Below are positions 26,649 to 38,146 of a stretch of 64,000 nt of DNA, piece by piece. Location of the stretch: the NCBI GenBank assembly GCA_017795005.1, contig CP051242.1:2906119-2970118 (forward strand), in the 5' to 3' direction. Positions within the stretch are counted from its first letter, which is position 1; the number at the start of each line of letters is the position of its first letter. Source of the stretch: Balneolaceae bacterium. GTDB taxonomy: Bacteria > Bacteroidota > Rhodothermia > Balneolales > Balneolaceae. The translations under genes and the position numbers were made by a program. The notes beneath the pieces were generated by a model. It was not told the DNA's origin. It searched no databases and worked only from the letters and a program-made list of their open reading frames with translations.

Positions 26649-27662
26649 TTACCCTGTTACAGTCTTAACTGTTTTTATAATTCTCGCTGCAACCTTATAT
26701 GGATCTGCATTTGAAGCAGGACGTCTGTCTTCGAGATATCCGCTCCATCCATGAGTTACTGTATACACAGGAATACGAATAGAAGCACCACGGTCAGAAA
26801 CTCCATAAGAGAACTGATCGATAGCAGCTGTTTCGTGAGCACCAGTTAAACGCTCTTCGTTATGGGCACCATAAACAGCTATATGTTCGTCTACCACATC
26901 ACGGAAAGCTTCACACACTTTCTCAATTTTCTCTTGAGAACCAGCAGTTCTGATAAACTCATTTGAGAAGTTTGCATGCATACCGGAACCGTTCCAATCA
27001 GTTTGTCCAAGTGGCTTTGGATGGTATTCAATGTAAACACCATATTTTTCGGAAAGTCTTTCCATCAGGTAACGAGCAACCCAGATTTGGTCACCGGCTG
27101 ATTGTGCACCTTTTGCGAAAATCTGCCATTCCCACTGACCAGCAGCAACTTCTCCGTTTGTTCCTTCAACATTCAAACCTGCTTCAAGACAGATATCTAA
27201 ATGCTCATCTTTAAAAGCTCGACCGTAAGCATTCTGTCCACCAACACCACAGTAGTATGGGCCTTGTGGACCTGGGTATCCGTTAACAGGGAAACCAAGT
27301 GGCAACCTTGTTTCCAAATCCATTAAAAAATATTCCTGCTCAAATCCGAACCAGAAATCATCATCCTGATCGTCAATAGTTGCTCTACCGTTACTCTCAT
27401 GAGGGGTTCCATCAGCATTCAAAACTTCGGTCATTACCAGATATCCATTTTTTACTTCCGGATCTGGATAAATTGCAACCGGCTTAAGTAAGCAATCTGA
27501 GCTACCTCCTTCTGCTTGTTCAGTAGAACTTCCATCAAAAGACCACTCCGGGCAATCCTCTAATTTTCCTGAAAAATCTGAAACAATTTTAGTTTTACTT
27601 CTTAGGCTTTGAGTAGGTTTGTATCCGTCAAGCCAAATGTATTCTAGTTTAGACTTCGGCAT
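26649..27662 (-). CDS. glnA: glutamine synthetase, type II (GSII)
   Basis: The enzyme makes glutamine from glutamate, ammonia and ATP in the cytosol. From the ATG at 27662 (MPKSKLEYIWLDGYKP) it has 337 residues, the short eukaryote-like GSII class. A longer reading from 27737 adds 25 residues with no match and would cover the promoter. Motifs are EDCPEWSFDGSSTEQAEG, DFWFGFEQEYFL, GTNGEVAAGQWEWQI, GSGMHANFSN, HETAAIDQFSYGVSDRGASIRIP and EDRRPASNADPY. An AAGCGCTT palindrome upstream is shared with amt. Confidence 0.97.
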   Translation of the reverse strand: MPKSKLEYIWLDGYKPTQSLRSKTKIVSDFSGKLEDCPEWSFDGSSTEQAEGGSSDCLLKPVAIYPDPEVKNGYLVMTEVLNADGTPHESNGRATIDDQDDDFWFGFEQEYFLMDLETRLPLGFPVNGYPGPQGPYYCGVGGQNAYGRAFKDEHLDICLEAGLNVEGTNGEVAAGQWEWQIFAKGAQSAGDQIWVARYLMERLSEKYGVYIEYHPKPLGQTDWNGSGMHANFSNEFIRTAGSQEKIEKVCEAFRDVVDEHIAVYGAHNEERLTGAHETAAIDQFSYGVSDRGASIRIPVYTVTHGWSGYLEDRRPASNADPYKVAARIIKTVKTVTG

Positions 27663-27705: not shown

Positions 27706-27737
27706 ATAATATAAAGCACTTTTTTATTAACACTCAA
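27706..27737 (-). promoter_or_regulatory. predicted glnA promoter
   Basis: On the minus strand, TTG (27737-27735), a 21-base spacer and TATATTAT (27713-27706) approximate the TTG...TAnnTTTG pattern. This puts transcription about 35-40 bases before the ATG at 27662. Confidence 0.4.
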
Positions 27738-27779
27738 TTAAATAAGATTAAAAATTATCCACATTTAAAATTTGTAGGC

Positions 27780-27791
27780 AAAAAAGCGCTT
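27780..27791. promoter_or_regulatory. AAGCGCTT operator-like palindrome upstream of glnA
   Basis: Reading the plus strand, AAAAAAGCGCTT occupies 27780-27791; the perfect 8-base palindrome is 27784-27791. The same 12-mer occurs upstream of amt (36703-36714). Here it lies 70 bases upstream of the predicted -7 element, and 71 bases at amt. Confidence 0.5.
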
Positions 27792-36535: not shown

Positions 36536-36844
36536 AGTTGTCTTTTTCTTGAAGTGAGTTAGTTCGCGCACAAAGATAAGACATATGAGAACATGTATTT
36601 CATAAAAAGCTTTTACACAACCCCCTTATACAGGTCATTTAAAAGCATTTGCAAAAAAAATTGAGCTTTTCAGGGAACCGCTTTCAATTCCCAACTTTAT
36701 TTAAAAAAGCGCTTTTACTATAATTATTTATGATAAAAGTTAAATAAATGTAAATTTTTTTATTTGAAGTTATTGTTCACCTAATTATGTTAGAGCCGTG
36801 TGGAATTCACTCACTACACTCATCACTAACTAACCATGTAAAAA
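36536..36844. promoter_or_regulatory. divergent purB/amt control region
   Basis: This 309-base region has no gene. It holds GGGAA-CCGCTTTCAA-TTCCC (36673-36692), an inverted repeat containing the pckA-shared GGAACCGCTTT at 36674-36684, and the 12-mer AAAAAAGCGCTT (36703-36714) shared with glnA, whose symmetric extension runs to 36716. The predicted amt promoter follows. Two operator-like boxes upstream of the -33 suggest activation, or dual control of amt. Nothing strong was seen for the purB promoter. Confidence 0.5.
36763..36793 (+). promoter_or_regulatory. predicted amt promoter (TTTG-N19-TAnnTTTG type)
   Basis: TTTG (36763-36766), exactly 19 bases, then TATGTTAG (36786-36793), one mismatch from TAnnTTTG. 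The predicted transcript would start near 36800, about 45 bases before the ATG. Confidence 0.55.
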
Positions 36845-38146
36845 ATGAAGTTTCTAAAAAAACTAATTTTAACAGTATTAGCTCTCTTAGCCGCACATTC
36901 AGTTCAGGCTCAGGATCTAACAGCTGACATTGTACAGGATAATCTTAATTATGTATGGACTATAATTGCTGCTTGTCTTGTCTTCTTTATGCAAGCCGGT
37001 TTTGCACTAGTTGAAACCGGATTTACACGAGCTAAAAATGCTATCAACATCATCATGAAAAATGTTATGGATGTTGGAGCAGGAAGTTTAGCTTTCTTCC
37101 TGGTAGGATTTGGTATTATGTTCGGTACTTCAGCTGGTGGCTGGATCGGTACCGATGGCTTCCTTCTTATGGAAATCGGAGACTACTCTGTTGAATGGTC
37201 TTACACTTTCTTTTTCTTCCAGGCTGTGTTTGCTGCAACTGCCGCTACCATTGTTTCCGGAGCTGTTGCAGAACGTACTGCTTTTAATGCTTATTTGATC
37301 TTTTCAATCCTCATTACAGCTTTCATTTATCCTGTTTTCGGCTCATGGGCATGGGGTAGCTTATTTAATGGAAGTGGCTGGTTAGAAGGACTCGGATTTA
37401 TTGACTTTGCCGGTTCTACTGTTGTTCACTCTGTTGGGGGCTGGGCTGCTCTTGCTGGTGCCATTGTTGTAGGACCACGTGTTGGCAAATATATTGATGG
37501 AAAACCTCAGGTAATTAAAGGTCACAGTTTACCTTTAGCAGCACTTGGTGTATTTATTCTTTGGTTAGGTTGGTTTGGTTTTAATGCCGGCTCAACTACT
37601 ACAGGCGATACTTCAATTGCTTTAATTGCACTAAACACCTTTTTAGCAGCTGGTGCAGGTGCTACTGCTGCAATGGTTATTTCCTGGATTTCAGGTGGTA
37701 AGCCTGATGGTGCTGTTACACTTAATGGTGTACTTGCCGGTCTTGTTGGTATTACAGCAGGCTGTGCAAACCTTACTCCTGGATTTGCAATTCTTGCAGG
37801 TGGTATTTCAGGTATTATTGTTCACTACTCTATGATTCTTCTAGATAAAAAAGTAGATGACGCTGTTGGTGCAGTATCAGTTCATGGTGTTTGTGGAGCA
37901 TGGGGAACATTAGCTGCCGGACTTTTCAATACTGGTGACATGTTTAACATGAGCATTATCGGTGTTCAACTAATTGGAATCGCTGCTGCATTCCTATGGA
38001 CGTTCCCTGTTAGTTACCTTGTTTTCAAAGGAATTGATATGGTACTTCCACTTCGCGTTAACGGTCACCTTGAAGAGATGGGGCTTGACCTTCACGAGCA
38101 TGACGCCGAAGCTTATCCGGAATTCGAGCCTAAAGTAATTGCTTAA
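36845..38146 (+). CDS. amt: ammonium transporter (Amt/Mep/Rh)
   Basis: The 433-residue inner-membrane channel for ammonium has a cleavable signal (LLAAHSVQAQ) and about eleven helices. The twin pore histidines lie in STVVHSVGGWAA and VSVHGVCGAWGTLAAG. Near the start is FFMQAGFALVETGFTRAKN. No GlnK/PII gene follows, although PII-amt pairs are common. A porin-like gene follows instead. Nitrogen control is suggested by the box shared with glnA. Confidence 0.97.
   Translation: MKFLKKLILTVLALLAAHSVQAQDLTADIVQDNLNYVWTIIAACLVFFMQAGFALVETGFTRAKNAINIIMKNVMDVGAGSLAFFLVGFGIMFGTSAGGWIGTDGFLLMEIGDYSVEWSYTFFFFQAVFAATAATIVSGAVAERTAFNAYLIFSILITAFIYPVFGSWAWGSLFNGSGWLEGLGFIDFAGSTVVHSVGGWAALAGAIVVGPRVGKYIDGKPQVIKGHSLPLAALGVFILWLGWFGFNAGSTTTGDTSIALIALNTFLAAGAGATAAMVISWISGGKPDGAVTLNGVLAGLVGITAGCANLTPGFAILAGGISGIIVHYSMILLDKKVDDAVGAVSVHGVCGAWGTLAAGLFNTGDMFNMSIIGVQLIGIAAAFLWTFPVSYLVFKGIDMVLPLRVNGHLEEMGLDLHEHDAEAYPEFEPKVIA

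Follow-up and report, generated by a model that had tools for sequence, protein, structure and literature searches.

Shared box upstream of glnA and amt

The window analyzed here is a 64,000-nucleotide stretch of the 3.75-Mb, single-contig genome of a member of the Balneolales, an order of salt-loving bacteria. Pfam assigns two of its genes to a glutamine synthetase (glnA) and an Amt ammonium transporter (amt), in agreement with the role in ammonium assimilation that the first-pass annotation had given to both (Table 1). The common 12-mer that the annotation had described before these genes, AAAAAAGCGCTT, is present at both places, reads on the plus strand in each case, and contains the palindrome AAGCGCTT. 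A gene for a Gcw_chp family protein of unknown function (PF09694; 38289-38948) lies downstream of amt.

Bacteroidota-type promoters have a TTG or TTTG element followed by a TAnnTTTG-like element, and predicted elements of this kind follow the box at both genes. The distance from the box to the predicted -7 element is 70 bp at glnA and 71 bp at amt, bearing out the matched promoter spacing noted earlier. Degenerate further copies of the palindrome accompany both boxes. AAGYRCTT forms of the second glnA box are found in L013-L016 and L021, and two relatives (L045 and L046) have amt upstreams with two perfect AAGCGCTT boxes 31 bp apart, a distance of three turns.

The genome has rpoN. A simple pattern scan for the sigma-54 -24/-12 motif (TGGCAY-N-TTGC) found none in the glnA and amt upstreams, except at one distant amt (L067), which is consistent with the earlier placement of these promoters outside the NtrC paradigm.

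Table 1. Genes, boxes, and predicted promoter elements at the two loci (window coordinates)
Feature	Position	Strand	Remarks
glnA, ~337-aa glutamine synthetase	26649..27662	-	Pfam PF00120/PF03951; start 27662
glnA predicted -7, TATATTAT (TATATTTG in relatives)	27706..27713	-	70 bp past box in 7/9 genomes
Degenerate second box AAGTGCTT, between glnA -33 and -7	27714..27721	-	
glnA predicted -33 region, TTGAGTG	27731..27737	-	TTG[AG]G 46 bp past box in 7/9 genomes
12-mer AAAAAAGCGCTT, glnA upstream	27780..27791		Plus-strand reading
AAGCGCTT palindrome core, glnA upstream box	27784..27791	.	Kept in 12/16 glnA orthologues
Degenerate copy AACCGCTT	36676..36683	.	31 bp upstream of amt box
12-mer AAAAAAGCGCTT, amt upstream	36703..36714		Plus-strand reading
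AAGCGCTT palindrome, amt upstream box	36707..36714	.	Kept in 23/30 amt orthologues, five families
amt predicted -33, TTTG	36763..36766	+	48 bp past box
amt predicted -7, TATGTTAG	36786..36793	+	71 bp past box
amt, ammonium transporter	36845..38146	+	Pfam PF00909; start 36845

Conservation of the box in Balneolales

Two copies of AAGCGCTT occur in the 64-kb window against an expected mean of 0.79, and at least two were present in 21 of 100 shuffles; by itself, this count is unremarkable and not significant. Across the whole genome, AAGCGCTT occurs 66 times and its reversed control 33 times, AAAGCGCTT occurs 52 times versus 19 for the control, and AAAAAAGCGCTT gives 12 hits at 10 sites versus 0. 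The 10-mer AAAGCGCTTT has 672 sites across 58 genomes, compared to 214 for its control, and lies above the control in 54 of them.

For each glnA, amt, gltB, and gdhA orthologue, we took 400 bp of upstream sequence and counted every one of the 256 palindromic 8-mers; the comparison extended to as many as 57 further Balneolales genomes. In all four sets, AAGCGCTT is the top palindrome, present upstream of 12 of 16 glnA, 23 of 30 amt, 21 of 30 gltB, and 9 of 30 gdhA genes, and the runner-up palindromes reach 6, 8, 4, and 4, respectively. The first-pass annotation had named gltB among further places to look for the box; gltB carries it, gdhA is marked as well, and none of 30 P-II gene upstreams contains it. 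The background is about 2% per 400-bp upstream, LacI gene upstreams taken as a control have the box in 1 of 75 cases, and shuffled upstreams give maxima of 1-2, never more than 2, versus the 9-23 observed.

At amt, the box is retained in families whose Amt is only about 48% identical to that of the window, and at gdhA, it is found among close relatives. It was not found upstream of 4 of the 16 glnA, 7 of the 30 amt (two of these being truncated upstreams), and 21 of the 30 gdhA orthologues. In one genome (G006), the glnA upstream is without a box, and the amt orthologue (G006:C8:39286-40119) seems broken, with two fragments, a gap, and an internal TGA. Because the genomes are related and not independent, binomial tails overstate significance, and we claim no formal P value. 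The significance of the box rests on its conservation at glnA and amt relative to the background and not on the window count. Judged by this comparison of upstream sequences, AAGCGCTT at these genes is a genuine cis-element.

Spacing between the box and predicted promoter elements

The glnA box lies exactly 70 bp from the predicted -7 element in seven genomes (L013-L018 and L024), the intervening sequence having diverged, and 46 bp from the -33 element in seven genomes; the exceptions are L021 and L022, with a distance of 109 instead of 70. At amt, the distances are 47-49 bp to -33 and 70-72 bp to -7 (six genomes). The gltB box is 113-115 bp from -33 in eleven genomes, a spacing (114) that is out of helical phase with those of glnA and amt. 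At gdhA, 4 bp separate the box from ATTG in nine genomes. The gdhA promoter (L195-L210) is a fixed module, AAGCGCTT-N4-ATTG...CGAC[CT][AT]TT, conserved in nine genomes, and it sits at varying distances from the start codon, between about -78 and about -151.

A second palindrome, CTWA-N5-TWAG, occurs upstream of gltB (L165-L178) in 13 of 30 genomes, against a shuffle mean of 1.5 and maximum of 4. It also overlaps the amt -7 element (CTAATTATGTTAG, window 36780-36793) in five close relatives and is perhaps the site of another regulator.

Two-operator looping at glnA was considered and is not favored. The second site is degenerate, the two sites are 70 bp apart, which is not a whole number of turns, and the candidate LacI protein described below is without an obvious tetramerization tail, all of which speaks against loop repression. 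A generic -33/-7 scan at all sites returned too few matches to split activating from repressing sites.

Occurrence of the box at carbon and energy genes

We read 60 of the 66 AAGCGCTT sites in the source genome. By a mechanical ORF call, 24 are intergenic and 36 are within ORFs, many of the latter probably by chance. The intergenic sites include those at nitrogen genes (glnA, amt, gltB with its class-II amidotransferase domain, and gdhA) and others at nqrA, fructose-1,6-bisphosphatase (fbp), thiolase, acyl-CoA dehydrogenase, and PfkB sugar kinase genes, GH43 and TonB/Sus-type loci (xylan/starch), a POT transporter, and a threonine-synthase-like enzyme. In five genomes from other genera (G018, G023, G028, G032, and G034), the 10-mer AAAGCGCTTT precedes gapA, sucD, 2-oxoacid dehydrogenase E1 and E2, pyruvate phosphate dikinase (ppdK), lactate/malate dehydrogenase (mdh), a hisC-like aminotransferase, an acyl-CoA ligase, and a second amt (amt2), and its gap to the gene is often equal in several of them. 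We excluded an E1 dehydrogenase site of the source genome (C1:1955231), which probably falls within a coding frame; E1 sites in four other genomes stand. The flanks of the box are TGTAAGCGCTTACA-like at sugar loci and often A/T tracts at gdhA and amt, and the gltB sites include TGTAAGCGCTTTCA, a flank of the sugar type.

The sites are not confined to nitrogen genes, and the box marks a putative central carbon and nitrogen regulon. Of the nitrogen-control operator proposed in the first-pass annotation, what survives is a shared operator-like site at a conserved distance from the promoter, and what does not is its dedication to nitrogen. Many copies with no nitrogen link, the outcome that the annotation itself had named as counting against its reading, are largely what we observed, since most promoter copies are at carbon and energy genes and none are at P-II genes.

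A candidate LacI-family regulator

The palindrome has the features of a LacI/GalR operator, being symmetric around a central CG with an exact fit to the AAnCGnTT core. The box consensus is about AAAGCGCTTTTCNA, and AAGCGCTT fits the CcpA cre consensus WTGNAANCGNWNNCWW. In group A Streptococcus, CcpA binds sites sharing this core in vivo, TTGAAAGCGCTTTATT among them (PMC8359418).

Four LacI genes in the source genome score above the Pfam cut-off. One of these (C1:1972148-1973158) is order-wide, with 53-77% identity across relatives. With few exceptions, the matches to it carry the names Balneolaceae, Balneolales, or Balneolia, which places the source genome in that group; outside the order, identity falls to 42-45% in Rhodothermales. 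No other LacI was found in the small genomes G003, G022, and G031, the last of which retains the amt box. The 336-aa product has a LacI helix-turn-helix domain (PF00356) and a periplasmic-binding-protein-like effector domain (PF13377), both over cut-off, and a helix region, KKxTIYxVAxxAxVAISTVSRV, in which VAISTVSRV is near the VSMATVSRV of CcpA. Against equivalog models, it scores 178 bits for CcpA (TIGR01481; cut-off 442), 190 for PurR (501), 77.8 for Cra/FruR (385), and 227 for RbsR (382), and it does not qualify as an orthologue of CcpA, PurR, or Cra by the NCBIfam cut-offs.

A LacI gene is present in 56 of the 58 genomes and wherever the site is enriched. G015 (97% complete), the only near-complete genome without a LacI gene, is alone among the 58 in having no AAAGCGCTTT; this genome is also without amt, P-II, and the glnA type of the window. 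G004 (86% complete), the other genome without LacI, has 3 copies of AAAGCGCTTT versus 2 of the control. The correlation between LacI count and site number across genomes (rho 0.35; control 0.27) is too weak, and we rejected copy number as proof. Autoregulation is common in the LacI family (PMC4052901). No box was found before the candidate's own gene, and we dropped autoregulation as supporting evidence.

Proposed explanation and alternatives

It is fairly likely that AAGCGCTT is a LacI/GalR operator core whose likeliest binder in Balneolales is the C1:1972148-1973158 protein, a putative CcpA/Cra-like global carbon and nitrogen regulator. Since such a regulator would also sit at sugar and energy genes, it probably couples the uptake of nitrogen to the supply of carbon. 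We put forward more tentatively, as something a little short of an even bet, that this single LacI protein, rather than NtrC, NtcA, or GlnR, is the main controller of amt, glnA, gltB, gdhA, and central carbon genes, such that carbon status would directly set nitrogen assimilation via one operator.

In the proposed mechanism, a dimer of the order-wide LacI protein would bind the box. At the nitrogen genes, the box precedes -33, either at some distance or directly (114 bp at gltB, 48 at amt, 46 at glnA, and 4 at gdhA), a position compatible with activation; for AraQ and CcpA, activation is known from sites that precede -35 (PMC6882875). Boxes at the GH43, TonB, fbp, thiolase, and acyl-CoA dehydrogenase genes are instead 19-50 bp from the start codon, a place at which a bound protein would obstruct transcription. 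On account of these positions, we suggest that when carbon is plentiful, the protein bound upstream of -33 might activate ammonium-assimilation promoters, and bound near the start codon, it might repress the sugar-use, fbp, thiolase, and acyl-CoA dehydrogenase genes, limiting alternative carbon use. This assignment of signs is a guess from geometry. Local LacI paralogues probably share the core at sugar loci.

A dedicated, non-LacI nitrogen regulator could bind AAGCGCTT at glnA, amt, gltB, and gdhA, with the carbon-gene copies arising by chance or belonging to local LacI repressors. The best conserved sites are indeed those of the nitrogen genes, and the sugar-locus flanks differ from the A/T tracts frequent at gdhA and amt. 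The sugar-type flank among the gltB sites blurs this distinction, however, and the box also marks central carbon genes with consistent gaps across genera, P-II genes are without it, and the LacI-less G015 is without AAAGCGCTTT. We consider such a regulator unlikely.

It is rather improbable that the nitrogen-gene sites are bound by another widespread LacI paralogue, encoded near C1:1777500 and about 11 kb from a starch-type TonB site (C1:1766850), or by several paralogues together. This paralogue is conserved in many relatives and also has a CcpA-like helix region, and LacI pairs that cross-bind are known, as for AraQ and MalR1 (PMC6882875), but the small genomes G003, G022, and G031 do not have it; they retain only the candidate LacI, and G031 has the amt box. 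Chance resemblance between two AT-rich promoters sharing a 12-mer, with which the ordinary window count (2 versus 0.79) would agree, is already refuted by the genome comparison, in which the box is conserved across five families in largely unalignable upstreams, the controls are near zero, and the shuffle maxima stay at 1-2 versus 9-23.

Comparison with known systems

Known global regulators of the LacI family are CcpA, Cra/FruR, PurR, GluR, GapR, and PckR (PMC4052901) and AraQ (PMC6882875). In a large survey of LacI regulons, Bacteroides was the sole representative of the wider group (PMC4052901), and our search of the open-access literature turned up no work on how nitrogen assimilation is transcriptionally controlled, or on such a regulon, in Balneolota. 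With a conserved operator and a named candidate protein, the question can now be tested. If the candidate LacI protein does act as proposed, this would be a further independent takeover of global regulation by the LacI family, with ammonium assimilation as a core target and not a side branch.

The NtrC, NtcA, and GlnR/TnrA systems resemble the proposed one in their joint control of glnA, amt, and gltB. The Balneolales box differs from the GTAN8TAC site of NtcA, and we take it not to be GlnR/TnrA-like. Unlike in these systems, carbon genes in Balneolales have the same box, and no -24/-12 motif was seen by simple scan.

PurR of Gammaproteobacteria likewise belongs to the LacI family and, as a global regulator, extends to nitrogen assimilation (PMC4052901), but the candidate scores 190 bits against 501, and the sites listed have no purine-gene pattern. 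Cra/FruR, GapR, PckR, GluR, and AraQ offer parallels as lineage-specific LacI regulators recruited for central metabolism (PMC4052901, PMC6882875); they belong to other lineages, and the Balneolales targets are glnA, amt, gltB, and gdhA. The CcpA/cre system of Firmicutes shares with the proposed system its operator core, a LacI-type protein with a similar helix region, and a global carbon regulon in which sites lie both upstream of and close to the promoter. The candidate differs from CcpA in sequence, being about 31% identical to it and scoring 178 bits against a cut-off of 442, and the putative Balneolales regulon differs in having ammonium-assimilation genes as core, conserved targets.
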